Shown: positions 1,011 through 19,939 of the stretch, one piece after another | How positions within the stretch are numbered: the first letter of the stretch is position 1 | Layout: each line of letters begins with the position of its first letter | Source: Synergistota bacterium | GTDB taxonomy: Bacteria > Synergistota > GBS-1 | Direction of reading: 5' to 3' | NCBI GenBank assembly: GCA_025060595.1 | Contig: JANXBX010000001.1 | Coordinates: forward strand, 1 to 64,000 | Length of the DNA stretch: 64,000 bases | Position numbers and translations under genes: made by a program | Notes under the pieces: generated by a model | Databases searched by the model: none | Told to the model about the DNA's origin: nothing | Seen by the model: the letters and a program-made list of their open reading frames with translations, nothing else

Positions 1011-1080
1011 AGGAGTGGAGTTTCCCCCGTAGGGGGAGAGACTACGGGGGAAACTCGGCGCTTAGCTAAGCTCCACTCCT
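1011..1080. repeat. Nested inverted repeats at the leuA 3' end (probable operon terminator)
   Basis: An inner 15-bp perfect inverted repeat (1018-1032 with 1042-1056, 9-nt loop) lies immediately after the leuA stop. An outer 10-bp repeat (1011-1020 with 1071-1080) overlaps it at 1018-1020 and reaches into the last leuA codons. The two stems are partly exclusive. No long T tract follows on the minus strand, so this is a transcript-end or stability element rather than a textbook intrinsic terminator. Confidence 0.6.
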
Positions 1081-2606
1081 TTAAGCGAGGCGGCGGCAAA
1101 GAGTCTGTTTAAGGCGTTAACATACGCCTTTATACTCGCTTCTATAATATCCGTGCTTGTACCTCTACCAACCACGGTAAAGTTGTCATACTGGAGAGTT
1201 ATAACCGCTTCGCCAAGCGCATCAGAACGCTCACTTGTAGCTTCTATTCTATAACTCTTCAAAACAGGATCTATACCAACTATTCTTTTTATAGCCTTAT
1301 AAGAAGCATCGACAGGACCATTTCCAACAGCAGCATCCACTTTTTCAAGACCATTTTCAAGAAGAGTTACTGTAGCGGTAGCCTTACCCCCATTGTCTAT
1401 AACCAGGGAAAAACCCTTAAGCTCAAATCTCTTTGACGCAGAAACACCTATAATTTCATCAGCAATGAAGGCCTCTATATCACTATCTGTAACTATCTCC
1501 TTCCTGTCACAAAGCTCCTTAAATAGTTTAAAAGCCCTCTCAAAAGATTCTTCATCTAAGTTAAACCCCATCTCTTCTAGACGTTTCTTAAAAGCATGCC
1601 TACCAGAGTGCTTACCTAAATATAAGCGAGTTCCAGGAAAGCCCACATCTTCTGGGCGCATTATCTCATAAGTAGCTCTATTACAAAGAACCCCATGCTG
1701 ATGAATTCCAGATTCATGAGAAAAGGCATTAGCACCAACTATAGCCTTATTAGGAGGAACAATCACACCTGTAAGTCTCGAAACAAGCCTGCTTGTCTCA
1801 TAAAGTCTTTGAGTATCTATCCTAGTATCCAACCCAAATATATCCTTTCTAGTTTTCAATGCCATAACTATCTCCTCTAATGCAGCATTTCCTGCTCTCT
1901 CTCCGAGACCATTTATAGTACACTCAACCTGACGAGCTCCAGCCCTAATCCCAGCAAGGGAATTAGCTACAGCAAGCCCAAGATCATTATGACAATGAAC
2001 TGACCATATGGCAGTTTTCCCACCGTCAACTCTCTCTATGATAGCCCGAACAAACTCCCCAAACTCACCTGGATAAGCATAACCTACCGTATCTGGAATG
2101 TTCAAAGTAGTCGCACCACAATCTAAGGCCAACCTAAAGATTTGGACAAGGAAATCCAAATCCGATCTACTTGCGTCTTCAGCTGAAAATTCGACATCAT
2201 CAACTAAACTCCTAGCATAAGTAACTGCCTCTTTAACAGCTTCAAAGACTTGCTCTCGCGACATTTTAAGTTTATACTGCATATGAATATCGCTTGTAGC
2301 TATAAATGTATGAATCCTCGGTCTATCAGAGTATTTAACTGCCTCATAAGCTGCCTTTATATCTTCTTTACGAGCACGAGCTAACCCTGCTATTATAGGT
2401 CCTTTAACTTCCTGAGCTATTCTCTTAACTGCTTCAAAATCCCCCTCTGAAGCTGCAGGAAAACCTGCCTCTATTACATCTACCCTTAAACGCGATAATT
2501 GATGAGCAATCTGGAGCTTCTCAGCTATGTTAAGATTGATACCTGCTGCTTGCTCTCCGTCCCTCAGGGTCGTGTCGAAAATAATAACCCCATCATCACC
2601 CATCAT
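1062..2606 (-). CDS. leuA: 2-isopropylmalate synthase
   Basis: First step of leucine synthesis: condenses acetyl-CoA with 2-oxoisovalerate. The 514 residues carry the HMGL-like signature DTTLRDGEQ near residue 11, the metal-binding HCHNDLGLA near 204, and a C-terminal LeuA dimer/allosteric domain (about 385-510) expected to bind leucine. Length is typical for LeuA and the regulatory domain is complete, which argues against homocitrate or citramalate synthase lacking it, although a citramalate synthase with a similar domain cannot be fully excluded. ATG at 2606 follows GGGGGG. It is the last gene of ilvN-ilvB-ilvC-leuA, 10 bp after ilvC, and is expected to be under the attenuator upstream of ilvN. 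Confidence 0.93.
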   Translation of the reverse strand: MMGDDGVIIFDTTLRDGEQAAGINLNIAEKLQIAHQLSRLRVDVIEAGFPAASEGDFEAVKRIAQEVKGPIIAGLARARKEDIKAAYEAVKYSDRPRIHTFIATSDIHMQYKLKMSREQVFEAVKEAVTYARSLVDDVEFSAEDASRSDLDFLVQIFRLALDCGATTLNIPDTVGYAYPGEFGEFVRAIIERVDGGKTAIWSVHCHNDLGLAVANSLAGIRAGARQVECTINGLGERAGNAALEEIVMALKTRKDIFGLDTRIDTQRLYETSRLVSRLTGVIVPPNKAIVGANAFSHESGIHQHGVLCNRATYEIMRPEDVGFPGTRLYLGKHSGRHAFKKRLEEMGFNLDEESFERAFKLFKELCDRKEIVTDSDIEAFIADEIIGVSASKRFELKGFSLVIDNGGKATATVTLLENGLEKVDAAVGNGPVDASYKAIKRIVGIDPVLKSYRIEATSERSDALGEAVITLQYDNFTVVGRGTSTDIIEASIKAYVNALNRLFAAASLKGVELS

Positions 2607-2616
2607 TTAATCCCCC

Positions 2617-3624
2617 CTATACTGGTGGCTTTTTGTTTTCAAGCCAAGGCATCATCTCTCTAAGTTTAGATCCTACCTTCTCTATAAGATGCTCTCTTTC
2701 TTTAGCAAGCCAAGCCTTAAAGCGCGGCCTTCCACACTGATTTTCAAGAATCCAATCCTTTGCAAAAGACCCGTCTTTAACTCTTTTAAGAAGCTCCCTC
2801 ATTCGATTTCTCACATCTTCATTTATAATATAATTTCCAGCTATCAAGTCTCCGTACTTAGCAGTATCGCTAACCGAGTACCTCATCCAGGAAAGCCCAC
2901 CCTCATATATAAGATCAACTATAAGCTTAAGCTCATTCAAACATTCAAAATATGCAATTTCCGGCTGATAACCCGCTTCAACAAGTATTTCGAAACCAGC
3001 TTTAATAAGCTCGCTAACCCCACCACATAAGACAGCCTGTTCACCAAAAAGATCCGTTTCTGTTTCCTCAGCAAATGTAGTTACAATAACTCCTGCACGA
3101 CCTGCACCTATGGCACTTGCATAGGCTAAACCGATCTGCTTAGCTTTACCCGAAGCATCCTGATGTACAGCCAGCAAAGCTGGAACACCTTTTCCCTCCT
3201 TATACATCCTTCTAACTAAATGACCAGGACCTTTAGGGGCTACCATGAAAACATCAACGTTCGGAGGAGGCTCTATCTGATGATAGTGAATAGTAAACCC
3301 ATGAGAGAAGCCCATTGCAGCACCAAGCTTTAAATTATCCTTCACATATGTCTTGTAAACATCTGCTTGAACGCTATCCGGAATAAGGAACATAACTATG
3401 TCTGCAACCTTAGTAGCCTCGTCCACTTTCCTAACGTCAAATCCATCATTTTTTGCAATCTCCCAAGATCTACTCCCATTATAAAGCCCAACTACCACAT
3501 CAACACCGCTATCTCTTAGGTTTTGCGCATGAGCATGCCCTTGGCTACCATACCCTAAAATCGCTACCTTTTTCCCTTTTAAAAGGGATAAGTCCGCATC
3601 CTTATCGTATAAAACTTCTGCCAT
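2617..3624 (-). CDS. ilvC: Ketol-acid reductoisomerase
   Basis: Converts acetolactate (or acetohydroxybutyrate) to the dihydroxy acid with NADPH and Mg2+. The N-terminal Rossmann motif [13 protein letters not shown] is followed by GLYNGSRSW, whose serine/arginine loop favours NADPH. The C-terminal knotted domain holds the metal ligands in ETDLFGEQ and ECLNELKLI. At 335 residues this is a short class I enzyme. The start [12 protein letters not shown] at 3624 is preceded by AAGGAGG; a longer reading from 3645 would run into ilvB and lacks an SD. It lies 7 bp after ilvB and 10 bp before leuA. Confidence 0.96.
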
Positions 3625-3631
3625 AATAAAA

Positions 3632-5335
3632 CTACCTCCTTTCAAGGCTTTCCTCAGTTATGATATCTTTAAGAGTACCACCAGGGACCATCATCGGTAA
3701 AACCTTCTCCTCTTGGGGAATAAGAAAGTTCACAACTACAGGCCCTGGTGTCTCTAAAGCCCTTTCTATCGCACCTCTAACCTGTGATGCTTCGCGGACT
3801 GTCCAGCCTTGAGCCCCTAAAGACCTCGCCAAACCTTCATAATCAGGTTCCTTTGAAAAAATCGTTTCAGAGTAACGCTTACCAAAGAATAGCTCTTGCC
3901 ACTGTCTAACCATACCTAAAGCCCTGTTATTAAGTAAAAGAACCTTAACAGGCAAGTTATAGCGAGCACAGGTATCAAGCTCATGAACGGACATCATAAA
4001 ACTACCATCCCCCGCAATATTAAAAACCGGCATCTCACAACCACAAGCTATACAAGCTCCCATTGCCGCAGGAAGACCATATCCCATCGTTCCAAGTCCT
4101 CCTGAAGTTATAAATCTTCGTGGTTTATTTACCTTGTAGTACAGAGCCGCCCACATTTGGTTCTGTCCTACCTCTGTAGTTAAAATAGCTTCCCCTTTGG
4201 TGATCTCCATAACAGCTTTTAATACATGTTGAGGTCTAACCTGACCAGAATATTCCAAGTCAAATCTCAGCTCCTCTTTCCAATCAGCAATTTTCTTCAA
4301 CCACTCCCTTCTACGACTTATATCAACTTTACCAACAGAATCTACTATCTCCTTGATGATCTTCCTAGCATCTCCAACAAGATAAATATTCGGTCTAACA
4401 TTCTTTCCCACTTCCGCAGGATCGTAATCTATATGAACTACCTTAGCTGAGTTAGCAAACTTATCAGGCCTTCCTATGCTTCTATCACTAAATCTCACAC
4501 CTATAGCAACAATAAGATCGGCCTCACAAAGAGCTTTATTAGCTGCTGGAGTTCCGTGCATTCCAACCATTCCCAAAGAAAGCCAGTGTTCTTCAGGAAA
4601 AGCTCCCTTCCCCATTAAGGTCGTCGCTACAGGTATTTCAAGCTTCTCTGCCAAGTTTAGTAACTCAGTGCAAGCATTAGATATGATAACTCCACCTCCA
4701 GCTAAGATAACCGGCCTTTCACAATTCAGGATTGCCTCAATTGCTTCTGGCATCTTATCTAAATTCCAAAAACCCTCTGGATTATATCCCCTGAAGTTTA
4801 AATCCGTCCCTCTAAAAACCCCCTCCTGCCTTTGAACATCCGATGGCAATTCAACCAAAACTGGACCAGGTCTCCCTGTCTTAGCTATATAAAAAGCCCC
4901 TCTAATTGCGAAGTAAATATCACCAAACTTTTTCACTTTAAAGCTGTGTTTAACTATTGGTAAGGTGATGCCAACTATATCAGTTTCTTGAAAAGCATCC
5001 TTCCCTACAAGGGAAGTAGCTACTTGACCAACTATTGCAACAAGAGGAACAGAATCCATATAGGCTGTTGCTATACCGGTAACGAGGTTAGTACTACCTG
5101 GGCCAGAAGTTGCAATACAAACACCTACTTCCTTACTTACACGGGCATAACCATCAGCTGCATGAGCTGCAGATTGCTCATGCCTAACCAAAATATGCTT
5201 AAAGCTCTTTCTCTTATAAAGCTCATCATAAAAGGGCATTATAGCACCACCTGGTAGGCCAAAAGCTACTCTAACATTCTCAAGCTCCAAACATCTTAAT
5301 ACAGCCGCAGCTCCTGTCATTCTCTCCTCGCTCAT
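3632..5335 (-). CDS. ilvB: Acetolactate synthase, large (catalytic) subunit
   Basis: ThDP-dependent condensation of pyruvate to acetolactate, or of pyruvate with 2-oxobutyrate, the first common step of Val/Ile/Leu synthesis. The 567 residues show the N-terminal ThDP pyrimidine domain ([29 protein letters not shown] with the catalytic Glu), a central FAD-binding domain, and the C-terminal ThDP/Mg motif [12 protein letters not shown]...LLNN near residues 445-470. The start at 5335 follows GGAGG and lies 6 bp after the ilvN stop. The adjacent regulatory subunit supports anabolic ALS rather than catabolic AlsS. Confidence 0.96.
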
Positions 5336-5341
5336 GATTTT

Positions 5342-5830
5342 CTAACCTCCATTAAAACCAACTCTTTTCATAGCAACACTACCACTACAGGCAATTTCTC
5401 TAATTCCATAAGGTTTGAAAGCACTAATACAAGCATTTATCTTATCCTTATCACCAGTAACTTCTACAACGATTCCTTCCTCACCCACATCTATCACATG
5501 AGCTCTAAAAACATCTACAAGTTGAAACACTTCCAGCCTTTTAGCAGCATTAGCCTCAACTTTCACCAAGGATAGTCCCCTCTCAACAAAGTTTCCACTA
5601 GTTAAATCCTCAACTGCTATAACCTCTACTAACTTCCTAAATTGAGCAATAATTTGCTTTACAGCCTCATCATCCCCTTCAAAAACTATAGTAAATCTAG
5701 AGATTCCAGCACCATTTATTCTTCCAACGCTTAAACTTTCAACATTATATCCCCGTCTAAAAATCAAGCTAGCAATCCTACACAATACGCCGGGGTGATC
5801 CTCTGTCCAAATACTAATTACATGCCTCAC
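5342..5830 (-). CDS. ilvN: Acetolactate synthase, small (regulatory) subunit
   Basis: Regulatory partner of IlvB that confers valine feedback control and raises activity. It has an N-terminal ACT domain (about residues 2-75; HVISIWTEDHPGVLCRIA, RRGYNVESLSVG) and a C-terminal ALS_ss domain. Starts are possible at ATG 5836 and GTG 5830. The SD GGGAGG touches the ATG but sits 7 nt before the GTG, and the GTG start gives MRHVISI, matching family N-termini, so 5830 was chosen (162 aa). It is the first structural gene behind the attenuator. Confidence 0.93.
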   Translation of the reverse strand: MRHVISIWTEDHPGVLCRIASLIFRRGYNVESLSVGRINGAGISRFTIVFEGDDEAVKQIIAQFRKLVEVIAVEDLTSGNFVERGLSLVKVEANAAKRLEVFQLVDVFRAHVIDVGEEGIVVEVTGDKDKINACISAFKPYGIREIACSGSVAMKRVGFNGG

Positions 5831-5869
5831 TTCCATCCCTCCCAAAAGTCGTGTAAAAGTAAAATAAAA

Positions 5870-5910
5870 GGGGCGGGGGCCCCTTTCCCTTACGGCGGGG
5901 CCCCCGCCCC
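5870..5910 (-). terminator. ilv attenuator: intrinsic terminator between leader peptide and ilvN
   Basis: A perfect 14-bp G+C stem (5897-5910 as 5' arm, 5870-5883 as 3' arm in the RNA, 13-nt loop) is followed on the minus strand by a T-rich tract (5855-5869). It is conspicuous in AT-rich DNA. The leader segment 5963-5976 can pair with 5893-5904 (12 bp with two 1-nt bulges), which would dissolve the terminator: the expected antiterminator. Confidence 0.85.
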
Positions 5911-5940
5911 TTAACTACTCTCATCAGAGGAGAAACTCGG

Positions 5941-6045
5941 CTATACGCCGATCACCCCTGGAGGGGACCCGCGCCGCAGGCTAATAATAACTAGAACTAG
6001 AGCTATAATAACCATAAAGCCCATTGAACTGTTATAAGCCTGCAT
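5941..6045 (-). CDS. ilvL: ilv operon leader peptide (34 aa)
   Basis: A short open frame with SD AAGGAGG 8 nt before ATG 6045 and a TAG stop at 5941. Residues 11-22 read MVIIALVLVIIS: nine of twelve are Val, Ile or Leu, the end products of the operon. It lies between a consensus promoter and a terminator hairpin, directly upstream of ilvNBC-leuA. This is the layout of enterobacterial ilvL/ilvB leaders, where stalling at branched-chain codons lets the antiterminator form. Here the predicted antiterminator strand (5963-5976) starts at the CGG at codon 24, right after the control codons. The peptide itself probably has no function. Confidence 0.85.
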   Translation of the reverse strand: MQAYNSSMGFMVIIALVLVIISLRRGSPPGVIGV

Positions 6046-6080
6046 CTGCAAGTCCTCCTTCCTCCAAGGATTTGATTAGA

Positions 6081-6109
6081 ATTTTAAACAGTAATTCTCA
6101 CCTTGTCAA
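6081..6109 (-). promoter_or_regulatory. Promoter of the ilv-leu operon
   Basis: TTGACA (6104-6109), 17-nt spacer, TAAAAT (6081-6086) on the minus strand. It lies about 35 bp upstream of the leader peptide start. It is nearly consensus, so control is expected mainly at the attenuator. Confidence 0.85.
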
Positions 6110-6215: not shown

Positions 6216-6515
6216 TTATGCTATCTTTCCTCTCTCTTTGAGAACAACAACTGCTTGTTCTACATCTGCAGTGCTACCCCAAAAGACTATAGTATTAAAC
6301 TGTTGAGGGCAGTTCCCCACAATTTCTGCTGCTTTAACGTTAACAACTTTAGTAACTATATCAACAATTTCTATTATCTCAGCAACACTTCCTTGAACAA
6401 GTAACAAAGCTTCACATCCTTCCAAACCCATATCAACCCTAGGCCTCAATCTACTTTTAATTATTTCAAGACAAATATCCGTTGGCCTGAGTATCACGTG
6501 AGCCTTTACGCTCAA
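6216..6515 (-). CDS. Divergent BMC-domain shell protein with permuted order
   Basis: Probable minor shell protein of the microcompartment. Residues about 3-18 (VKAHVILRPTDICLEI) match the element [11 protein letters not shown] that normally ends a BMC domain. They precede a degenerate BMC core (GSVAEIIEIVDIVTKVVNVKA, then IVFWGSTADVEQAVVVL), so the fold looks circularly permuted as in EutS/PduU. The usual pore loop GGG is missing and two cysteines are present. TTG at 6515 follows GAGGGG; an earlier TTG at 6539 has no SD. It is the last gene of the operon, 17 bp after eutP. Assignment rests on motif order and context. Confidence 0.65.
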   Translation of the reverse strand: MSVKAHVILRPTDICLEIIKSRLRPRVDMGLEGCEALLLVQGSVAEIIEIVDIVTKVVNVKAAEIVGNCPQQFNTIVFWGSTADVEQAVVVLKERGKIA

Positions 6516-6532
6516 ATATATCCCCTCTTTCC

Positions 6533-6982
6533 TTAGCAAGCTAATATATCATCTATCCTTTTTTTTAACTCAATCAAACCAAACCCGGTCAAAGCTGAAA
6601 CCTCGAATACTTCTTTGACACCTGCATCTCTTAAAAACTTCCTTGCCAAATCTATTTTCAGCTCTTTACCGTCGTAAAGCAGATCTATCTTATTTATAAC
6701 TCCTAAAGCAACTGCACGTAAAACCTTAGATATTCCTGAAGGAAAAGGCTTAGGATCCACAGCATCCACAACGAGAAGAACAATCTTCGCCTTTGATGAA
6801 AACACTATTAAGGCATTATAAAATCGAGGTATATCCAGAAATTCACCAGGAGTATCTATTGAAAAAGCATCGACATCGACGCTCTCAGTTTTTTTTACCC
6901 TCTTATTCCTTAACCCCAATTTCTCTAAAAGCGTAGTTTTTCCAACACCTGTGCTGCCTATAACCATCACTCTTTTCTTCAT
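6533..6982 (-). CDS. eutP: EutP/PduV-type Ras-like GTPase
   Basis: Small G-protein of ethanolamine/propanediol operons; EutP has been described as an acetate kinase and PduV as a microcompartment-associated protein linked to positioning. The 149 residues carry G1 GSTGVGKTTL (9-18), G3 DTPGEF and G4 NKIDL. The start ATG overlaps the eutS stop (ATGA), so translation is coupled. No separate acetate kinase is seen in this operon, so EutP may complete acetyl-phosphate use; that is inference. Confidence 0.88.
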   Translation of the reverse strand: MKKRVMVIGSTGVGKTTLLEKLGLRNKRVKKTESVDVDAFSIDTPGEFLDIPRFYNALIVFSSKAKIVLLVVDAVDPKPFPSGISKVLRAVALGVINKIDLLYDGKELKIDLARKFLRDAGVKEVFEVSALTGFGLIELKKRIDDILAC

Positions 6983-7347
6983 GAAGACGTCACCTTCGCA
7001 GGGAAAAAACCAAGTACTTCATGCAAAAATTTCACCACATTATAAAGGGCCACTTCTACCGAGGAAACATCTCCACTTATAATTACACAACCAGTAAACC
7101 TATCAACAAACTCGATATGAACAGCAGCCGTTTTAGAGGCTATATCAGCAGCTATAATAGCTCCCTCACCGGGAGTTATAGTCATAATGCCAATAGCACC
7201 TTTGTTGTCAATACCTATTCTGTCACAAATATCGTCACGTGGATTTCTTATAATATGGGCTAATGTTACCTGTTTACCAGGAACATATTCCTGGACTATA
7301 CGTTGCTTCCCATTACTATTTAAGAGCTTTTTAACTTCATCCGTCAC
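6979..7347 (-). CDS. eutS: EutS/PduU-type shell protein (circularly permuted BMC)
   Basis: Hexameric shell protein. It has the family hallmarks QEYVPGKQVTLAHIIRNP (beta-barrel and permuted strand), GAIGIMTITPGEGAIIAADIA and FIDRF-like EFVDRFTGCVIISGDV. The GTG at 7347 lies 10 nt after AGGGG and gives 122 residues; a TTG at 7377 would add ten residues but has no SD. A hairpin at 7380-7411 separates it from eutH, and its 3' arm can also pair with this SD. Confidence 0.9.
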   Translation of the reverse strand: MTDEVKKLLNSNGKQRIVQEYVPGKQVTLAHIIRNPRDDICDRIGIDNKGAIGIMTITPGEGAIIAADIASKTAAVHIEFVDRFTGCVIISGDVSSVEVALYNVVKFLHEVLGFFPAKVTSS

Positions 7348-7353
7348 GCTGAT

Positions 7354-7411
7354 AACACCCCTTAAGATATTTATCAAATAGGGGTGTTGTCCTTTCTAGA
7401 ACAACACCCCT
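7354..7411 (-). promoter_or_regulatory. Hairpin with alternative pairing to the eutS ribosome site
   Basis: An 11-bp perfect stem (7401-7411 with 7380-7390, 10-nt loop) sits between eutH and eutS. The nonamer AGGGGTGTT of its 5' arm is repeated exactly at 7354-7362, where it forms the eutS SD. The 3' arm can therefore pair with either copy. No T tract follows, so translational or processing control is more likely than termination. Confidence 0.55.
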
Positions 7412-7475
7412 ACACTAACTAAAACAGGTTAAAAATTATAAATAAAATCTAAACGTGAATATATACTAGATCACA

Positions 7476-8558
7476 TCACTTACCTTTGGAACCGAAAATC
7501 ATATTAGCTACCATAACTGCCGTTATACCAGCAGTAAGCTTTCCAACTATCATAGGGAAAATCATCTCTTTTGCTACACCTGCAGTAAAGCCCAGATGAT
7601 CTCCGAATGTAAAAGCTGCGCTCACCGCAAAAGCACAGTTAAGAATCTTTCCTTTTTCATCCATTCTATCTAAGATCTGAAACATAGGAATATTATTAGC
7701 CAATGTAGCTACAAAACCAGCAGCAGCAAAGTCATTAACACCTAATCTCTTTCCAACAGCCATAAGAGGCTTATTGAAAACCGTCGTAAGAAACTTAACT
7801 AAAGGAAATGCGCCCGCAAGCATTATCGCTATAGAGCCAATAATCTGTATACCATCCCATATAGGAGCCATACCAGGAATCACAACTACTCCTGTAAGGG
7901 TCTCAATGATAGCCGATGCTAATCCCACAGTGATAACAGCTACTATGAATACCCCAAATTTTTTGAATCCAGCTATCATTTTTTCCGGAATAAGCCACAA
8001 ACCTATAGCTATAAGTGCAGCTACTATGATTATAGGAACAAGATTAGAAAGAACCATAGAAATTGGAAAACCAGCTGTTAAGCCTCCAGCCAAGCATCCC
8101 AAAGGTATAGTTATCATCCCAGCAAGAATTCCCTTAGCTAAAGGTGTACGATCTTCTGGCTTTATTATTCCCAAAGCCACCGGTATTGTGAAAACTATCG
8201 TTGGACCCATCATAGCACCTAGTATTAGACCTGCGAATAACCCAGCTTCCTTTGTAAGGGCTAATTGCATAGCTAAGGGATACCCACCCATATCATTAGC
8301 TAGAAGTGTAGTAGCAAACATCGCAGGATCTGCACCTAACGCAGTATATATAGGAACAACAACAGGCCTTAATATCTTTGCCAAAACAGGTGCAAGCGAA
8401 ACAACACCCACCATAGCTAAAGATAAAGCTCCCATCGCGTTAAATCCCTCTTCGAACTTCTCTCCATAACCAAAACGATTACCTAATATCCTATCTATTG
8501 CTCCCAGTGCCATGAAAAAAACCATTATATTAACTATCCACTGATTTATCGCTTCCAC
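7476..8558 (-). CDS. eutH: Ethanolamine permease EutH
   Basis: Integral membrane protein for ethanolamine uptake. The 360 residues form about ten hydrophobic segments, beginning INQWIVNIMVFFMALGAIDR as in EutH, with conserved DMGGYPLAM and GPTIVFTIPVALGI. GTG at 8558 follows GGGGGGAGG. It lies 39 bp after a shell gene and before eutS in the microcompartment operon, which supports ethanolamine as the substrate. Confidence 0.93.
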   Translation of the reverse strand: MEAINQWIVNIMVFFMALGAIDRILGNRFGYGEKFEEGFNAMGALSLAMVGVVSLAPVLAKILRPVVVPIYTALGADPAMFATTLLANDMGGYPLAMQLALTKEAGLFAGLILGAMMGPTIVFTIPVALGIIKPEDRTPLAKGILAGMITIPLGCLAGGLTAGFPISMVLSNLVPIIIVAALIAIGLWLIPEKMIAGFKKFGVFIVAVITVGLASAIIETLTGVVVIPGMAPIWDGIQIIGSIAIMLAGAFPLVKFLTTVFNKPLMAVGKRLGVNDFAAAGFVATLANNIPMFQILDRMDEKGKILNCAFAVSAAFTFGDHLGFTAGVAKEMIFPMIVGKLTAGITAVMVANMIFGSKGK

Positions 8559-8597
8559 CGATCCTCCCCCCTTACCGACATCTTTTACTAATTCTCC

Positions 8598-8885
8598 TTA
8601 ACCTTCTTCCAGCTTAGGCAAAATAAGCTCTACCTCAGGATGCGGTCTCGGAATGACATGAACTGCTATGAGTTCTCCCACACGCTTAGCAGCAGCTGCT
8701 CCTGCATCAACAGCCGCTTTAACTGCCCCAACATCACCTCTAACCATAACTACTACAAGTCCTCCCCCCACATGTTCTTTGCCTATCAAGGTAACATTTG
8801 CTGCCTTAACCATTGCATCGGCAGCCTCTATTGCACCAACCAAACCTTTAGTTTCAATCATTCCAAGAGCTATTTGTGTCGACAT
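8598..8885 (-). CDS. eutM: BMC-H shell protein (EutM/PduA type), second copy
   Basis: Major hexameric shell component. The single BMC domain reads [20 protein letters not shown], then [20 protein letters not shown] with pore loop GGG, and [12 protein letters not shown]. The ATG at 8885 lies 7 nt after GGAGG. It is about 80 percent identical by eye to the copy at 14510-14824, which suggests a recent duplication within the operon. Confidence 0.95.
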
Positions 8886-8977
8886 AAGCACACCTCCTCT
8901 CCACTGCTTTAAAATTACTTAGCTAAATAAGAAATAATAACCCCTCTCTCAATTCACCCCCTTTCTGTATGTAGGTC

Positions 8978-9265
8978 TTAACCTTCAAGCTCAACCTTTT
9001 TAACCCTCTCGCCTTCAAACAGTTTGATAACCCGTTTAACTATTTCATCAACAACACTTTTATCTTTAACACCATACTCAGCACACAGTGCCGAAACTAT
9101 ATTAGGAAACTCACTGGTTTCCACATAGATAAACTTTATACCTAAGCTCCTCGCTAAGTCCATAACACCGGGAGGGATTATAAGGTTTCTGCTAACAATC
9201 ATACTTTTACTGCCTCCATAGTAACATTTCTCCACGTCCTGTTTTGAAAGAATCTTTTTACCCAT
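8978..9265 (-). CDS. Small microcompartment-operon protein with EutQ/EutT-like N-terminal motif
   Basis: The 95 residues are not recognised as a named protein. Residues 22-52 (MIVSRNLIIPPGVMDLARSLGI, then KFIYVE) follow the pattern 'v....iiTPaA...l....i.i.y' seen at the N-termini of EutQ and EutT. Elsewhere this element joins enzyme domains; here it stands alone with a short C-terminal charged helix. ATG at 9265 follows GGAGGTG. It lies between pduT and a shell gene. It could be a cargo adaptor or a remnant of EutQ; no function is assigned. Confidence 0.7.
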   Translation of the reverse strand: MGKKILSKQDVEKCYYGGSKSMIVSRNLIIPPGVMDLARSLGIKFIYVETSEFPNIVSALCAEYGVKDKSVVDEIVKRVIKLFEGERVKKVELEG

Positions 9266-9284
9266 ATATTCACCTCCCCGAAAC

Positions 9285-9851
9285 CTATATCAAATTGACA
9301 AGTACATACTCCGATATATAAGGTATGATTGAAAAAGTAAGTATCATCCCCTCTCCAGCAATTCTATCTCTACCAGCATTAATAGCAGCTTCCACAGCAC
9401 TAACATCCCCTATCATAGTTACAAAGGACTTTCCCCCTATACCTATAGCTGGTCTAATCTCAAGTAAATGGATATTCCCTGTTTTTACAGCAGCATCAGC
9501 AGCATATATACATGCTGTAACAGTAAAAGTCTCTATAACCCCCAATGCCCAATGAGTTTTAAAATCTTTTGGAGCAGCAATTTCAGTCATTCCCTCTAAA
9601 GCCCTGAGAACCTCTTCATGGACTCCCGAAATAACCACAGCATCTGCCTTATACTCCCTTACAACATCTACTCCACGATCAACAGAACTATTAACAGCCG
9701 CCACATCTCCACCCACCATCACTAGAAATTTTCCGGGACATATAGTCTTCGCAACATACAGCTTCACTGGTGCGACCTTCACCATTGCATCGGCAGCTTC
9801 TATTCCCTTAGCTATACTTATACTCTCTAATATTCCTAGTGCCTTACCCAT
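9285..9851 (-). CDS. pduT: PduT-type tandem BMC shell protein with [4Fe-4S] cysteine
   Basis: Trimeric shell protein with two BMC domains (about 3-90 and 100-188). Cys38 in TICPGKF is at the position that binds a central [4Fe-4S] cluster in PduT, giving a possible electron path through the shell. The second domain contains GIGGKSFVTMIGDVSAVEAA. Length 188 compares with about 184 in Salmonella. Its start overlaps the end of pduS by 8 bp, in line with a PduS-PduT redox pair. Confidence 0.94.
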   Translation of the reverse strand: MGKALGILESISIAKGIEAADAMVKVAPVKLYVAKTICPGKFLVMVGGDVAAVNSSVDRGVDVVREYKADAVVISGVHEEVLRALEGMTEIAAPKDFKTHWALGVIETFTVTACIYAADAAVKTGNIHLLEIRPAIGIGGKSFVTMIGDVSAVEAAINAGRDRIAGEGMILTFSIIPYISEYVLVNLI

Positions 9852-11208
9852 TCTTTCTCTCCCCTTTTATCACTACCGCCTCATCCGAAACAGAAATAAC
9901 TTTACCTGATATACTAGCATGAACATTAACTCCAAGCTTACCCTCTGGTACTTTTCCTAAAACATCACCTTCAACTACATAATCCCCAACTGAAACAATA
10001 GGAGTCGCCGGAACCCCAATGTGCTGCTTCATCAAAATGGTAACTTCCTTTGCCTCAATTCTATCCTCTAAAAGAGGAGCATAGCGATCAAATTCATAAA
10101 TACCTATCCTCATCATTAACCTCTTAGTAGGAACCTTCCTATATTCTCTATCCTCTCTTACAACTATATCAGCTTTAGGTGGATACCTAACTCCTTCCTG
10201 AATAAGCTTAGCCTTTATGTATTGATTAACTCTTCTTGGAGATAAAAGTTGAGGGCAAGAGTATGCTTCGCAAACACCACATTCAGAACATAACAAAGCA
10301 CTCTTTCTAACCTCTATTCCCATATCAAAAGCCATAGAAATCATAATTCTATGAGGCTCCAAATCATGTCCTAAAAGATAACGAGGACATTGATCGGTAC
10401 AGTATCTGCATTGTATGCAACAAGTACGTGCTCTTTTTAGAATATAATCAAGAGGAGCAGTAAACTGAGAAACCGCCGGGTGCCCCTTTTCAAAAATAAG
10501 TATTCCCCCTGTAGTTTTGGTAACTGGCACATCTGGAGATATTACTCTACCTGTCATAGGACCTCCTTCTATCAAAACCTTTCCATCGTAATTAATACCA
10601 ATAATATCAAGAACCTCTTTCACTTTAATCCCCACAGGAACCCTGACAGTAACAGGATTTCTCACATCGCCACCAATAGTTATAAACTTATCAATTACAG
10701 GTGCTCTTTCTACAAAAGCCCTATACACGTTATATATAGTCTCTACATTGTTTACTACGGCTCCCACCATTATCGGAATACCAGCAGCTGGTACCGGTCT
10801 CCGAAGAATTTCATAAACCAGTACATGTTCATCACCTTCTGGATAGTAATCCCCACATTCAAAAATATCAAAGGCATAATTACGCTCACTCAATGAGTCT
10901 TTAATTAACTTCACTATTGATGAATACTTACCTTTAAGGGCTATTACTCCCCTCTTAGCCCCAACATAATCCACAAGTATCTTAAACCCCTCAAGAAATT
11001 GGAAAATCTTCTTAGCCAGCAGTTCTTTAGTAACCCAAAGGAGAGGCTCACACTCTGCACCGTTAGCAATATACTCATTAATACCCTCTTTCCTGAGCTT
11101 TGCATATGTGGGAAACCCTGCACCCCCTGCTCCTACAACACCCATCTCTTGCAGAATCAAAGCCAAGTCTTCCAAAGCTCTCACTCCTAAATCAAATCTA
11201 CTTAACAT
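9844..11208 (-). CDS. pduS: PduS-type iron-sulfur flavoprotein (cobalamin reductase)
   Basis: Membrane-independent RnfC-like protein that reduces cob(III)alamin/cob(II)alamin for the adenosyltransferase. It has the N-terminal GVVGAGGAGFPTYAKL (NADH/FMN region), an SLBB domain, two cysteine motifs CIQCRYCTDQC (about 266) and CSECGVCEAYSC (about 310), and a C-terminal RnfC barrel. The ATG at 11208 overlaps eutN by 11 bp without a clear SD; an in-frame TTG 14 codons later sits behind AGGAG and is an alternative. Neighbours pduT and eutT fit electron transfer across the shell to B12. Confidence 0.93.
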   Translation of the reverse strand: MLSRFDLGVRALEDLALILQEMGVVGAGGAGFPTYAKLRKEGINEYIANGAECEPLLWVTKELLAKKIFQFLEGFKILVDYVGAKRGVIALKGKYSSIVKLIKDSLSERNYAFDIFECGDYYPEGDEHVLVYEILRRPVPAAGIPIMVGAVVNNVETIYNVYRAFVERAPVIDKFITIGGDVRNPVTVRVPVGIKVKEVLDIIGINYDGKVLIEGGPMTGRVISPDVPVTKTTGGILIFEKGHPAVSQFTAPLDYILKRARTCCIQCRYCTDQCPRYLLGHDLEPHRIMISMAFDMGIEVRKSALLCSECGVCEAYSCPQLLSPRRVNQYIKAKLIQEGVRYPPKADIVVREDREYRKVPTKRLMMRIGIYEFDRYAPLLEDRIEAKEVTILMKQHIGVPATPIVSVGDYVVEGDVLGKVPEGKLGVNVHASISGKVISVSDEAVVIKGERKNG

Positions 11209-11464
11209 CCATAGAATCTACTATTCCCACAACAGCAGCATCCACAGGTATTTCCTCGCCCGTAGATATCTTTCTCGCAGAACTTCCCGTGGTCACTATA
11301 ACTAACTCTCCTACACCAGCTCCTATAGTGTCCACCGCAACGAAAGCCTCCCCTATCTCACGCTGATACTCATCTATCTGCTTAACGATAAGAAGCTTAT
11401 AACCCTGTAGACTTTCCTCTTTACGAGTAGCCCAGATACTTCCAACAACCTTCGCTATTAACAC
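11198..11464 (-). CDS. eutN: EutN/CcmL-type pentameric vertex protein
   Basis: Pentamer that closes the vertices of the polyhedral shell. The 88 residues show MLIAKVVGSIWATRKEESLQ, the conserved DTIGAGVGELV, and TTGSSAR. GTG at 11464 is 1 bp from the stop of the preceding flavoprotein gene. It is the only BMC-P gene in the locus. Confidence 0.95.
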   Translation of the reverse strand: MLIAKVVGSIWATRKEESLQGYKLLIVKQIDEYQREIGEAFVAVDTIGAGVGELVIVTTGSSARKISTGEEIPVDAAVVGIVDSMDVK

Positions 11465-12235
11465 CTATCCCATCCTCCTAACTACTTCTATCTTTTTGTC
11501 TCGTATAATATCAGCAGCCAATGGGGTAATTAAAGAGCAAGAATCGATGATTATCTTGGAGCACCCCATCGATACAACACCGTTTACAGTTTCAGATGTT
11601 AAGACTCTGCCCTCAAAAATAAACTCTTTTTTCTTAACGCCCTCACTTAGGCCAGACTTACTAATCTCTACAGAAGATTTACCATTTTCTAAACACAATG
11701 ATACTTCCTCAACTTTACAGAGGATTACTCCCAGTTTAACAAGTTTCTTGGCTATCTCTTCTAAAAGGAAAGCGTAATCAGTACTTACCCCTTCAGTGCT
11801 TAACGATTCACAGACAGCTATTACTTTCTTACCCATAATTAAAGCGCAAGCAGCTATTTCACTTGCTAGACAATCTCTTATACCCCAAGCTATCTTAGCA
11901 GCCGTATTTTGAGTAAGCGTCGGGAAAATCACAACTTTAGCCTCATTTACCTCTTCATAGAAGCGCTCTTCATTAAGCAAGTCAACCTCAAGTCTTGACC
12001 TCACCTCAGAAAACTGCTTCATTCTCCTTGCAGACTCAGAAAAAGCAACAACTAATTGGAATCTCTCCTTAAGCTTCAAAAGTTCATCTATTGCTTTTTC
12101 AATCAATCCAGGTGCTCCAGTAAACACCACTATTACCTTTTCTTTAGGAGAAACTTCTTTCTTTAATTTCTTTAAAACCTCATTAACAATTTCTTCAACT
12201 ATAATCTTCTTATCCTCAGCTTTTAGCGATACCAT
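11465..12235 (-). CDS. Microcompartment-associated flavoprotein (PPC-decarboxylase-like fold)
   Basis: Probable flavin-binding cargo protein. After an amphipathic helix at 8-22 (KKIIVEEIVNEVLKKLKKE), typical of encapsulation peptides, comes a flavoprotein domain (VIVVFTGAPGLIEKA...FSESARR...TQNTAAKIAWGIRDCLAS). The C-terminus ITPLAADIIRDKKIEVV repeats the EutQ/EutT-type pattern. ATG at 12235 follows GGAGG at 10 nt. Similar flavoproteins are known from several BMC loci but their substrate is unknown; a role in B12 or aldehyde redox is only a guess. Confidence 0.78.
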   Translation of the reverse strand: MVSLKAEDKKIIVEEIVNEVLKKLKKEVSPKEKVIVVFTGAPGLIEKAIDELLKLKERFQLVVAFSESARRMKQFSEVRSRLEVDLLNEERFYEEVNEAKVVIFPTLTQNTAAKIAWGIRDCLASEIAACALIMGKKVIAVCESLSTEGVSTDYAFLLEEIAKKLVKLGVILCKVEEVSLCLENGKSSVEISKSGLSEGVKKKEFIFEGRVLTSETVNGVVSMGCSKIIIDSCSLITPLAADIIRDKKIEVVRRMG

Positions 12236-12243
12236 GTCATTCC

Positions 12244-13071
12244 TCACCTCCTCAGGCAGCTAAGAGCTATGCCCAAGGGAGTAACAAATAATGGATTTCT
12301 AGGCTTCCATACAGCAAGACCAAGCTCCTGGGATATTATATCCTCAATGCCTTGCAAACACGCAGTTCCTCCCACTAAATAAACGCATTCAACTTCAAAG
12401 CCATTTAAATGTCTATGAATAATGCTCGCTACTTTCTGTACAACTGGCTTAACAATCATAAGTACGTCTTTTGCATTCTTTGGATCCTTTTTATACTCTT
12501 CCGCCTCCTCAAAGCTAATCTTTAAAGCTCCAGCTATGACTAAAGAGAAGTGAGTCCCCCCTGTAGGTTCATCAGCTGTATAAATAACCTCACCATTATT
12601 AACCACAGCTATACCCGTTGTGCCTCCCCCAACATCAACTATTACCCCATCTTTCACTCCCAAGACATAATTTGCAGCCGTAGGTTCATCTATCATCCTT
12701 ATAACTTCAAAGCCAGCACCCTCAGCAACATAAAAGTGAACCTTTTCAACCGCTTTACCCGTACCTGGAGGAAAAGCAGCAGCAGCTTTTCTTAATTCAA
12801 CGCCAAGTTTCTTTTCTAATTCCGATTTAAGACTCCTTACAATCCTAACCGCTCCAGTAAAGTCCACTACAACGCCATCTCTAACAACCTCAGCGAATCT
12901 ATAAGCGCCAGCTACTGGGTTACCATTAGAATCTACTACTGTCACCACAACATAAGCCGTCCCTAAGTCTACACCAGCAAAGAGCTCTCCTTTCCATGCT
13001 AATGGAGATTTTATTGCTTCATCCATTAAAGCCAATAAGCTTTCAGCATTTTCAGGAGAAAAGGAAGACAT
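12244..13071 (-). CDS. eutJ: EutJ, Hsp70-like ATPase of ethanolamine operons
   Basis: Actin/Hsp70-fold ATPase of unknown exact role, thought to act as a chaperone for microcompartment enzymes. The 275 residues have phosphate-1 GVDLGTAYVVVTVVDS (about 29), phosphate-2 GVIVDVGGGTTGIAVV (about 143) and the adenosine motif VYLVGGTACLQG. The substrate-binding domain of DnaK is absent, as in EutJ. Spacing to pduL is 2 bp. Confidence 0.94.
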   Translation of the reverse strand: MSSFSPENAESLLALMDEAIKSPLAWKGELFAGVDLGTAYVVVTVVDSNGNPVAGAYRFAEVVRDGVVVDFTGAVRIVRSLKSELEKKLGVELRKAAAAFPPGTGKAVEKVHFYVAEGAGFEVIRMIDEPTAANYVLGVKDGVIVDVGGGTTGIAVVNNGEVIYTADEPTGGTHFSLVIAGALKISFEEAEEYKKDPKNAKDVLMIVKPVVQKVASIIHRHLNGFEVECVYLVGGTACLQGIEDIISQELGLAVWKPRNPLFVTPLGIALSCLRR

Positions 13072-13073
13072 AC

Positions 13074-13715
13074 TTATATTCCCCCCACCTCCATGTAAAC
13101 TATATCACCTGTCTTAACCCCCAACGCATTAGCTTCCTCTACATCGAGATGACATTCTAAAGCATAATTTTCACTAACTCTAACTAATACTCCACCTAAA
13201 ACTCCACATCTTATACCTTTCTCAAATCGTATTCTCACTATATCACCATCTTTAACCCCTAAAGATCTAGCCTCTTCAGGTTTCATATGAATATGCCTTT
13301 GAGCGACTATTACTCCTTCCTCAAGCTTAATTACACCAGCCGGTCCTATAATATATATTCCAGGAGTTCCCTTAAGCTGGCCTGAATCCCTAACTACCGG
13401 CTCAACACCTAGGTGATAACAATCGGAAATTGAGACTTCAACTTGACAACTCTTTCTAACAGGTCCCACTATCCTAACGTTATCTATCATTCCCTTAGGA
13501 CCTAACAATTTTACAGTTTCATTTGCAGCAAATTGTCCCGGTTGCCTAAGATAAGCTTTCACCGTTATTTTATTCCCCCCAAAAAGTATCTTCTCCGCAT
13601 CCTCAGATATATGAACATGTCTATTGGAAACACCAACTATCACAGGTACTCTTCTTTCCCAAGCTAAAATCTCTTCGACTATTTTTTTTACGAGTTCCTC
13701 CCCAAAATCCGCCAT
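13074..13715 (-). CDS. pduL: PduL-type phosphotransacylase
   Basis: Converts acetyl-CoA and phosphate to acetyl phosphate and free CoA inside the shell. Residues 5-17 (EELVKKIVEEILA) form a likely encapsulation peptide. Two PduL beta-barrel domains follow, with metal/active-site motifs SNRHVHIS (about 30) and QRHIHMKPEEA (about 140). Length 213 matches PduL. It replaces the Pta-like EutD of enterobacterial eut operons. ATG at 13715 follows GGAGG. Confidence 0.95.
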   Translation of the reverse strand: MADFGEELVKKIVEEILAWERRVPVIVGVSNRHVHISEDAEKILFGGNKITVKAYLRQPGQFAANETVKLLGPKGMIDNVRIVGPVRKSCQVEVSISDCYHLGVEPVVRDSGQLKGTPGIYIIGPAGVIKLEEGVIVAQRHIHMKPEEARSLGVKDGDIVRIRFEKGIRCGVLGGVLVRVSENYALECHLDVEEANALGVKTGDIVYMEVGGI

Positions 13716-13718
13716 GTT

Positions 13719-14483
13719 TTATCCTCCTTTTGGATACCTGCCAGCTCGTAACCAACACATCATTACATACAAAGCGCTGCTAAGTCTATTAAAGGCTATC
13801 AGTATATCCTCCCTCTTAACCCCTTCAAATTCATCATAAAATGCTTCACATGCGGCTATCTCACACTCTCTTATCTGTGTTCTAATCAAGTTCAAATAAG
13901 CCATAACCTCTCCATTCTCCCAAGATGGAATAAAGTGATCTATTCCTATAAACTTCCTAGGATGGTGTGAAATATCTCTAATATCCGACCATGATAAACC
14001 AAACAATTTAAATTCTTCTAAAGGCTCACCTAAAACCTCAGCTCTTAGTATCTTCCTAACTATAGATAAAACCTCTTCCAAGTGACTAACAACTTGTGGG
14101 AAGCCAGCCTTTGCTATTTGTGTTTGAGCCAGAATAATATGGGCCTCTAAAGAGTCTATTTTCCCCCTCAACTTAATTCTTGGGTGGCTTTTAGAAACTA
14201 ACTTATTACCACTTAAGTGAGTAAAGTGCTCTGGCTTCTCATCAACCCCTAACCCTGCACTTAATAACTCAAATCTCGCCTTAGCCTTAGGTTCTTCTTT
14301 CTTTTTCTCCGGCTCTTTTTCCTCAGTAGATTCCGCTTCCCCGTAAACAATTTCGATCTTATTTTCATTAAGATAACTCAAAGCTGCCGGCGTAATTATC
14401 GTACCTGGCGGCACCACAAAGCGCCGCACAGGCCCCCTTTTTCTTAACTCGTTTCTTAACTCTATTTCTGTGAGAACTTTCAA
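13719..14483 (-). CDS. eutT: EutT-type ATP:cob(I)alamin adenosyltransferase
   Basis: Makes adenosylcobalamin for EutBC. The N-terminal segment has RFVVPPGTIITPAALSYL (about 22-39), followed by a charged linker (60-72, Lys/Glu) and a helical adenosyltransferase domain. The HX11CCX2C metal motif of enterobacterial EutT is not evident: the candidate region has CEIAACEAFYDE, so this may be a variant metal class. TTG at 14483 is preferred over ATG 14489 because GGGAGG lies 9 nt upstream of the TTG. It lies 3 bp before pduL. Confidence 0.85.
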   Translation of the reverse strand: MKVLTEIELRNELRKRGPVRRFVVPPGTIITPAALSYLNENKIEIVYGEAESTEEKEPEKKKEEPKAKARFELLSAGLGVDEKPEHFTHLSGNKLVSKSHPRIKLRGKIDSLEAHIILAQTQIAKAGFPQVVSHLEEVLSIVRKILRAEVLGEPLEEFKLFGLSWSDIRDISHHPRKFIGIDHFIPSWENGEVMAYLNLIRTQIRECEIAACEAFYDEFEGVKREDILIAFNRLSSALYVMMCWLRAGRYPKGG

Positions 14484-14509
14484 TATCATCTACCTCCCAG
14501 GATCAAAAG

Positions 14510-14824
14510 CTAAGTTGTTGAACCGGCTTCTTCCTCCCCTTTCTTAAGCTTAGGAAGTATGTACTCAACCTCGGGATGAGGCCTGGGAATAACATGAACA
14601 GAAACTAACTCACCCACCCTTGCAGCGGCTGCAGCTCCAGCATCTGTTGCAGCTTTAACAGCACCTACATCGCCCCTAACCATCACAGTTACATAACCTC
14701 CTCCTATCTTTTCCTTACCTATAAGCGTCACATTCGCAGCCTTCAACATAGCATCAGCAGCTTCTATTGCTGCTACAAGCCCTCTTGTTTCTATCATACC
14801 GAGGGCTATCTGATTAACTGCCAT
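14510..14824 (-). CDS. eutM: BMC-H shell protein EutM
   Basis: Major hexameric shell protein. The domain reads [39 protein letters not shown] with pore [24 protein letters not shown]. The 104 residues include a short acidic tail ([11 protein letters not shown]) that the second copy at 8598 lacks. ATG follows GGAGGGG. It lies just after eutE, as in standard eut operons. Confidence 0.96.
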
Positions 14825-14873
14825 TTAAAATCCCCTCCTTTCACACACTAAAAAATTAATAAATATATATCTT

Positions 14874-16337
14874 TCAAGATAACCTCTTAATTACTTCCTC
14901 AACAATACGCCTTACCAACTCTGGATCTAACCTCTTTTCAGAGATTGAGATCCCACCCTTAAGGTATGTTTCCAATTCCTCAACCGTCCTGACAGGATAA
15001 GCAAGTCTTTTTATATTCATTAAATGCTGTGGTCCTATATTATCAGAAGTGATATTACCACCTAATGTTCCACAACCAAGCGTTAGGGATGGAGGTAAAC
15101 CACTCGTTCCACCTATAGCTCCAAAAACTCCTGGTTGATTCACCAATATCCTAAAAGCCGGCTTTTCAAGAGCGAATTTCATAATTATCTCCTCATTACG
15201 AGAGTGAATACACAATGTATGCCCCATTCCCCCAGCTTCTAATATTTTTACACAAAGTTTACATGCCTCTTGCCAGTTACCTACCTCGTAAAAGGCTATA
15301 ACTGGACTGAGCTTTTCTTTTGAAAGTGGATACTCTTTGCCGGCTCCATCAAGAGGAACAACCAAAACCCTCGTATTCTTAGGTACCGGTATACCCGCTG
15401 CCTCAGCTATGTAACAAGCAGATTTCCCAACCACAGCTGGATTAAGAGTCCCATCACTTCTAAACATATATTTCTCAAGTCTATAAGCTTCATCGGGCCT
15501 TAAGAAAACACCCCCCAATTTTTCAATCCAAGATTTAACCTCAGAAGCGTTTGAATGCTCACAGATTATAGCTTGTTCCGCAGAACATATGGTACCGTTA
15601 TCGAAAGTCTTACTATCTATAATACATTTAACTGCAGTTGGAACATCAGCACTTGCCTCTATATAGGCAGGTACATTACCAGGACCTACCCCATAAGCGG
15701 GCTTACCAGCGCTATAAGCAGCCTTCACCATCTCAGCTCCACCAGTAGCTAAAATTAGACTCACATCTGGGTGCTTCATAAGAGCCTGAGCAGCCTCTAA
15801 CGTTACTGTACTTAAACACCCCAGAATCCCTTCCGGCGCTCCAGCTCTTACAGCAGCCTTGTGTAAAATTTCAACAGCCTTACCGGTACATTCAATAGCA
15901 CGCGGATGAGGACTAAATACCACCGCATTTCTTGCCTTAACAGCTATAAGGGATTTATATATAACTGTAGAAGTTGGATTTGTTACCGGTGTTAAAGCAG
16001 CTATAACTCCCACAGGCTCAGCTATTTCATAGATACCCTTTTCTTTATCAATATTTATGACTCCCACAGTCTTCATATCTTTTATATGGTCATAAACTGC
16101 TCTAGCAGCAAATAAATTTTTGATAATCTTATGCTCGTATACTCCAACTCCCGTCTCTTCCGCTGCAAGCTTAGCAAGCCAATCGGAAGCTTTTATGGCC
16201 TCCATAGCCATGGCCTCTACAATTCTATCCACCTGTTCCTGAGAGAAGTCCTCTACAACCTTTTGAGCTTTCTTTGCCTGTATAACAAGATCTCTAACCT
16301 CCTGTAGAGCAAGGAGATCTTTATCAATATTCCTCAT
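14874..16337 (-). CDS. eutE: CoA-acylating acetaldehyde dehydrogenase EutE/PduP
   Basis: Oxidises acetaldehyde with CoA and NAD+ to acetyl-CoA. It has an aldehyde dehydrogenase fold with the catalytic cysteine in [12 protein letters not shown] (about 260). The start ATG 16337 follows GAGG at 4 nt and gives 487 residues. The usual N-terminal encapsulation helix is missing: the protein begins directly with the ALDH helix [18 protein letters not shown]. Instead, the last 18 residues ([18 protein letters not shown]) form an amphipathic helix of the encapsulation type after a Gly/Ser linker. It overlaps the upstream BMC gene by 14 bp. Confidence 0.93.
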
Positions 16338-16944: not shown

Positions 16945-16960
16945 AAATGTCTCACTTCAC

Positions 16961-17617: not shown

Positions 17618-17641
17618 TTCTCATCCCCCCTATCCCTAAAA

Positions 17642-18541: not shown

Positions 18542-18555
18542 CCCGCTCCCTCCTC

Positions 18556-19923: not shown

Positions 19924-19939
19924 GCCCGCCCCCCCTTTC

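Follow-up and report, generated by a model that had tools for sequence, protein, structure and literature searches.

In a survey of 2010, attenuators were considered proved only in Proteobacteria and Actinobacteria, to which Firmicutes were then added (PMC2965389). The enteric trp, his, leu and ilvGMEDA attenuators resemble the locus described here in that they have an open reading frame (ORF) with control codons, mutually exclusive pairings of region 2 with region 3 (2:3) and of region 3 with region 4 (3:4), and targets in the sensed pathway. Enteric leaders that sense different amino acids are not known to share any recognisable ancestry, and their region 1 includes the control codons. The best-studied comparison outside Proteobacteria is provided by the ilv attenuators of Corynebacterium (the ilvB-II motif/ilvBNC attenuator; PMC10272879, PMC11857589), in which an upstream ORF (uORF) for branched-chain amino acids (BCAA) likewise precedes ilv, and terminator, antiterminator and anti-antiterminator hairpins are found. 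BCAA/Thr-rich uORFs upstream of ilvB have also been proposed for the ilvB-OMG and Leptospira ilvB motifs (PMC10272879). The T-box (RF00230) is comparable in that one RNA architecture serves many operons and codon identity reprograms the amino acid sensed. For Synergistetes, the phylum concerned here, a CodY-like regulon was proposed to control ilv and leu genes (PMC9318921), and Thermovirga lienii of the same phylum was analyzed by Stav et al. (2019).

The window, a stretch of 64,000 nt from a Synergistota bacterium, carries an ilv-leu leader that is very likely a genuine attenuator and a member of an apparently unrecognised Synergistota family, with a shared core and with sensing codons matched to the target. 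The ORF, the pairings, their covariation and the match between codons and genes are shown by sequence evidence; the mechanism is inferred, without expression data.

Organisation of the ilv-leu leader

The leader sits between a bacterial-microcompartment operon and ilvN. Its elements and the genes behind it are as follows:

6081-6109, minus strand: sigma-70-type promoter (TTGACA 6109-6104, 17-nt spacer, TAAAAT 6086-6081; 11 of 12 consensus matches)
6054-6060, minus strand: Shine-Dalgarno (SD) sequence AAGGAGG of the leader ORF
6037-6071, minus strand: region 1, made up of the SD and start codon of the leader with the bases around them; forms 27 pairs with region 2 in the minimum-energy fold (own and swapped pairing compared family-wide)
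5941-6045, minus strand: leader peptide ORF of 34 codons plus stop, MQAYNSSMGFMVIIALVLVIISLRRGSPPGVIGV (ATG 6045, TAG 5941), kept in relatives
5983-6012, minus strand: control codons VIIALVLVII, nine of ten branched-chain; an Ile/Leu/Val run is present in all ilv leaders
5954-5982, minus strand: region 2, the antiterminator 5' arm and anti-SD, within the leader ORF at its 3' end, where LRRGSPPG is encoded (recurring motif GCNGCGGGTCCCCTCC)
5937-5951, minus strand: small hairpin TCGGC-GTATA-GCCGA with the TAG stop in its loop (from folding)
5893-5910, minus strand: region 3, the terminator 5' arm and antiterminator 3' arm
5870-5883, minus strand: region 4, the terminator 3' arm
5855-5869, minus strand: T-rich termination tract TTTTATTTTACTTTT
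5342-5830, minus strand: ilvN, acetolactate synthase small subunit (likely start GTG 5830, SD GGGAGG; ATG at that place in relatives)
3632-5335, minus strand: ilvB, acetolactate synthase large subunit (TIGR00118)
2617-3645, minus strand: ilvC, ketol-acid reductoisomerase
1062-2606, minus strand: leuA, 2-isopropylmalate synthase (TIGR00973)

Residues 12-21 of the leader peptide include nine Val, Ile or Leu. As only two of the 422 short ATG ORFs of the window (15-61 codons, both strands) reach nine such residues in ten, this composition is not ascribed to chance. The terminator consists of GGGGCGGGGGCCCC (5910-5897), perfectly complementary to GGGGCCCCCGCCCC (5883-5870) over 14 G+C base pairs and followed by TTTTATTTTACTTTT. 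In the antiterminator, CGGCGCGGGTCCCC (5976-5963) pairs with GGGGCCCCGCCG (5904-5893) over 12 bp with one bulged C. The minimum-energy fold of the leader was 7.4 sd more stable than dinucleotide shuffles and held two elements, namely region 2 (5982-5954) with the SD/start (6071-6037), hereafter 1:2, and the terminator. When the RNA was cut before region 4, the antiterminator fold was obtained, with regions 2 and 3 paired and the stop-codon hairpin present. No Rfam family reached its gathering score for the window leader or ten other members, and the T-box covariance model (RF00230) gave no match upstream of ilvN. Rfam matches near 5860-5930 (mir-337, rox2 and others) were rejected as effects of the GC-rich terminator, their scores falling far short of the gathering cutoffs.

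The genome of the window comprises 1.86 Mb on 34 contigs and groups with the MAGs 'bacterium GBS-1' and 'bacterium 42_11'. A search of plasmids for ilvN and the leader gave no match. Two strong T-boxes above the gathering score were found in this genome, before carA (L001; G000:C6:62681-62941) and before argG (L002; G000:C2:125296-125555), so both RNA strategies coexist in it; the two are presumably arginine-specific. Between 0 and 6 T-boxes per genome were counted in the 41 genomes checked. Directly upstream of the ilv leader, at 6216-19959 of the window (minus strand), lies a large ethanolamine-utilisation-like microcompartment locus with several shell-protein-like ORFs, a EutP/PduV-like GTPase, a EutH-like permease, a PduS-like protein, an aldehyde dehydrogenase, and EutL-, EutC- and EutB-like genes, named by reading translations without HMM support.

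Conservation and base pairing of the leaders

About 23 relatives, belonging to several families, share one layout upstream of ilvN: the leader ORF contains a run of Ile/Leu/Val codons, directly followed by a motif close to AGCTGCGGGTCCCCTCCYGGAGC, and then comes a terminator, the 5' arm of which bears the complement GGGACCC. All three pairings were strong in 20 ilv leaders (1:2, -12 to -36; 2:3, -19 to -36; 3:4, -17 to -42 kcal/mol). Compensatory changes were recognised by eye, GGGCTC occurring with GAGCCC in leaders L014 and L022, and GGATCCC with GGGATCC in L010. The core sequence of leader L026 is largely different, yet all three pairings are kept.

Covariation was analyzed in 57 aligned leaders. 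The main helix of the antiterminator 2:3 was 95.9% paired, and the whole antiterminator contained 37 double-change cells against 10.5 in shuffles, a signal that collapsed when the partner was slid. The terminator 3:4 of the same leaders was 97.5% paired, with 66 double-change cells against 13.4. This alignment had been fitted to the terminator and not to the antiterminator, and the antiterminator columns were picked after inspecting pairing percentages on the same alignment. When own partners were compared with partners swapped between leaders, the own partners paired better in both cases (1:2, -21.1 vs -18.4; 2:3, -21.4 vs -17.7 kcal/mol; p<=0.0002 each).

Ribosome-footprint folding was performed for the window leader and across 54 leaders of the family. 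For the window leader without a ribosome, 22 expected 1:2 pairs and zero 2:3 pairs were obtained; a stall at the last control codons gave 8.6 pairs of 2:3 and was the only ribosome position to do so, no 2:3 pairs being formed with the ribosome at the stop codon. A choice between structures by a stalled ribosome is consistent with these results, although only in a folding model. Among the family leaders, 2:3 was dominant in 50 of the 54 once a ribosome had stalled at the last control codons; with the SD occupied as well, it was dominant in every one of the 54. Without a ribosome, the equilibrium nascent RNA favoured 2:3 over 1:2 in 42 of the 54, the window leader being an exception to this behaviour.

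Several ilv loci with other arrangements were observed. In L074 (genome G133), two seemingly identical cores (401-517 and 641-757) lie 240 bases apart before ilv genes. Either the attenuator was duplicated in tandem or the assembly is at fault here, the second copy being followed by masked bases. L025 (G028) shows a tandem pair of ilvN-like genes at 979-1974, and the visible bases upstream of the second copy contain no direct leader. In the species-rich genus g8 of family f4, ilvN directly follows ilvB, and the genomes checked gave hardly any matches to the leader family, if any, and none to the T-box; both RNA control systems have apparently been lost there.

The promoter, SD, Val/Ile/Leu-rich 34-codon ORF, 14-bp terminator, T tract and antiterminator described in an earlier note, made from the sequence alone, all held at the positions listed above, and the RNA folding it proposed as a check gave the terminator with 1:2, or the antiterminator upon truncation. 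It had named a lack of conservation in relatives, or a T-box acting instead, as refuting: the Val/Ile/Leu-rich ORF and the antiterminator pairing were found across the phylum, and the T-box alternative failed. Comparison of genomes supports its interpretation of the leader as a transcription attenuator, the ORF, 2:3 and 3:4 recurring phylum-wide with compensatory changes; the mechanism remains inferred. The statement that the leader is too short for routine gene calling is consistent with family leaders of 27-40 codons, easily overlooked by gene callers. The comparison with low-GC anaerobes concerns a different group, as the organism belongs to the Synergistota and is not a low-GC Firmicute.

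A leader family with exchanged control codons

A covariance model (R1) built solely from ilv leaders matched 144 of the 185 genomes of the phylum and 60 of its 62 genera; a single genome held as many as 17 matches. Family members score up to 101 bits. Because the first MAFFT alignment that included the family of the window (A1) misregistered the terminator arms, that family was left out of the first model, and matches were realigned by the covariance model; members in the window's own genome are known from model searches only. Matches to the terminator alone (model positions 70-105) were dropped as unspecific. Target genes were confirmed by HMM searches, and the control codons and genes of the members included the following:

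Met/Cys leaders: MMMCSMMMC before metQ; MMMCM before metN; MMMCAMMMC before metX; MMMCGMMMC before metY
Leu leaders: SLSLLL before leuA; NLLGLL before leuC
Ile leaders: NIIIIIIN before the gamma subunit gene of a 2-oxoacid:ferredoxin oxidoreductase; AIIIIT before a threonine-dehydratase-like gene
Val leader: FDVVVVVDV before panB
Phe leader: FFFSFFF before the gene of a solute-binding protein, which is closely followed by a DAHP synthase gene
Phe/Tyr leaders: FAFTYYY and CFFEYYY before paaK; AYYYFYF before a DAHP synthase gene
FFYFYF before the gene of a membrane protein that has no Pfam match
Thr+Met leaders: MGTMTT and TTMMCTT before homoserine dehydrogenase and aspartate kinase
AAAAMA before an aminotransferase

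An ORF was present in 97 leaders, 71 of which precede a gene from 16 seed families. For these 71, the richest ten-residue stretch was compared with the class of the downstream gene. Met genes were preceded by 6.4 Met/Cys vs 1.0 elsewhere and BCAA genes by 8.0 matching residues vs 3.2; the corresponding values were 3.9 vs 1.1 for aromatic genes (p=5e-5 for each of these three classes), 4.1 vs 1.7 for Leu genes (p=2.5e-4) and 5.3 vs 2.4 for Thr+Met genes (p=0.02, n=3). The seed families were picked after the loci had been viewed, the classes themselves being textbook pathways, and the p-values are indicative only since related genomes are not independent.

In the genome of the window, a Tyr/Phe leader (L120; G000:C1:130356-130474, minus strand), the peptide of which ends in RQHYVVYLFVFYFRCLGSPV, precedes paaK (phenylacetate-CoA ligase); its counterparts in two sister genera read FRFYFSWKGSPA and FGFYYYTNRGSPA. 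As its model score of 30 bits is within the noise seen elsewhere, its membership rests on gene context and sister-genus conservation. Its 5' UTR may be very short, given that the promoter-like TTGACT-TATACT is very close to the leader start.

Look-alike membrane proteins, none of which has a Pfam match at E<=1e-8, follow leaders L086 (G183), L178 (G133) and L182 (G023), the codons of which differ (Met/Cys, Ile and Phe/Tyr/Trp, respectively). This suggests an uncharacterised amino-acid transporter family, with substrates perhaps predictable from the leaders.

Proposed mechanism, alternatives and known systems

The window leader very likely acts as a ribosome-mediated transcription attenuator of ilvNBC-leuA, although every kinetic and ribosomal step, including amino-acid-dependent read-through, is inferred. 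A translatable ORF with an SD, a codon run for the end product, an intrinsic terminator before the first gene and a covarying antiterminator are all present; the textbook trp-type criterion that region 1 contains the control codons is not met, as region 1 is the leader SD/start. The earlier description as a classic ilv attenuator is refined in two respects: the competitor of the antiterminator is the leader's own ribosome-binding site, and the leader is not isolated but belongs to a large family in which many specificities occur. In the proposed model, region 2 would pair with the leader SD/start when no ribosome is present or the ribosome has finished, leaving region 3 free to pair with region 4 and stop transcription. 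With ample charged Val/Ile/Leu-tRNA, the ribosome would reach the stop codon just past region 2 and cover region 2, and the terminator would form. With scarce charged tRNA, it would stall at the control codons immediately 5' of region 2; 1:2 would then be blocked, since the stalled ribosome covers part of the 5' edge of region 2 and further ribosomes may occupy the SD, so that region 2 would pair with region 3 and the operon would be read. Because region 1 is the leader's own SD, its occupancy by following ribosomes is predicted to favour read-through. As the other members exchange only the control-codon run (Met/Cys, Leu, Phe/Tyr, Ile, Val or Thr+Met), the same core would report a different amino acid to the matching gene.

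The switch must be kinetic, because the full-length RNA always ends in the terminator, and default termination in most family leaders would need 1:2 to be formed first, co-transcriptionally, because without a ribosome they favour 2:3 at equilibrium. This early formation of 1:2 is inferred and is the weakest step of the model.

A riboswitch binding BCAA or ppGpp, or a leader recognised by a protein, with the short ORF merely incidental in either case, could account for the strongly structured and conserved core, and ilvB genes are under ppGpp riboswitches in some bacteria (PMC10272879). This is very unlikely, given that the leader codons track the downstream pathway in 71 leaders, that region 2 lies inside the ORF directly after the control codons in every member, that no Rfam riboswitch matched the window leader or ten other members, and that genes for Met, Leu, aromatic amino acids and BCAA could not all be under a single aptamer. 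There is equally little to recommend a real terminator combined with a small membrane peptide acting in trans, without attenuation. VIIALVLVII does look like a short transmembrane stretch, and leader peptides can act in trans (peTrpL, PMC7298713); however, paralogous leaders have MMMCSMMMC, FFFSFFF or TYYY at that position, and region 2 is kept as RNA, GGGUCC occurring in ORFs that read GSPPG, GSPEV, GGPP and others, and GGGCUC (which codes GL) being matched by GAGCCC in region 3. Stalling of the EF-P type at Pro-Pro-Gly of the recurrent GSPPG peptide was set aside, since the peptide varies (GSPEV, GLPEV, GGPPG) as the RNA pairing changes, the pairing itself being kept.

It remains possible that attenuation is real and the resemblance convergent, leaders of separate origin having become alike in region 2 through pairing with a generic SD (GGAGG) and through a strong terminator. 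CCUCC of region 2 is an anti-SD, and pairing is still good with an SD partner from another leader (-18.4 kcal/mol). Against this, the SD imposes neither the GGGUCC half nor the constant spacing from the control codons nor the stop hairpin, and still all three recur across specificities; two other bacterial groups with SDs and terminators gave no comparable matches. For one group, a Thermodesulfobacteriaceae MAG gave access to 198 genomes of its phylum, in which the best match reached 33.5 bits and the inspected matches had no family-like leader; for the other, reached by way of a Dehalococcoidia MAG, none of 201 genomes gave a match at E<=1e-7. Both scans used stricter filters, which diverged members could escape.

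Beyond the preferred reading as an attenuator family, a bolder one was considered, to which we give slightly less than even weight: that a single ancestral core was duplicated and reprogrammed by control codons alone, forming a regulon for at least BCAA, Leu, Val, Ile, Met/Cys, Phe/Tyr and Thr+Met as a translation-based counterpart of the T-box, and that it also senses occupancy of the leader ribosome-binding site. In this reading, the antiterminator segment doubles as anti-SD of its own leader ORF, and the switch would therefore sense initiation or ribosome queueing and not just the stall position.

No description of a Synergistota attenuator family was found in the literature searched, subscription journals being outside its scope. 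The main text of Stav et al. (2019) contains no such family; unnamed or 'repeat' motifs in the supplement of that study might include some of the leaders. The novelty lies in a core common to many amino acids phylum-wide and in an SD-sequestering region 1; the ilv leader alone would be an ordinary attenuator. Unlike the enteric attenuators, the Synergistota core serves many amino acids, its region 1 is the SD/start and its region 2 lies inside the leader ORF. The Corynebacterium uORF differs in having 15-17 residues and in occurring once per genome, only before ilvB; its initiation site is described as open during an RNA polymerase pause, and no sequence relation to the Synergistota leader was seen. 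The ilvB-OMG and Leptospira ilvB motifs gave no Rfam match at the window leader. The CodY-like regulon involves a DNA-binding repressor, and the text of PMC9318921 mentions neither attenuation nor leader peptides; such a regulator may act on the BCAA genes in addition.

Leader-peptide attenuators are usually seen as scattered, operon-specific inventions, whereas here one core is found in a phylum of amino-acid fermenters. It permits annotation by covariance models and a direct test of attenuator duplication and specificity change, and its codons may predict transporter substrates, as with the Met/Cys leader L086. The attenuator regulon is comparable in scope to the T-box, which differs in reading uncharged tRNA directly, without translation.
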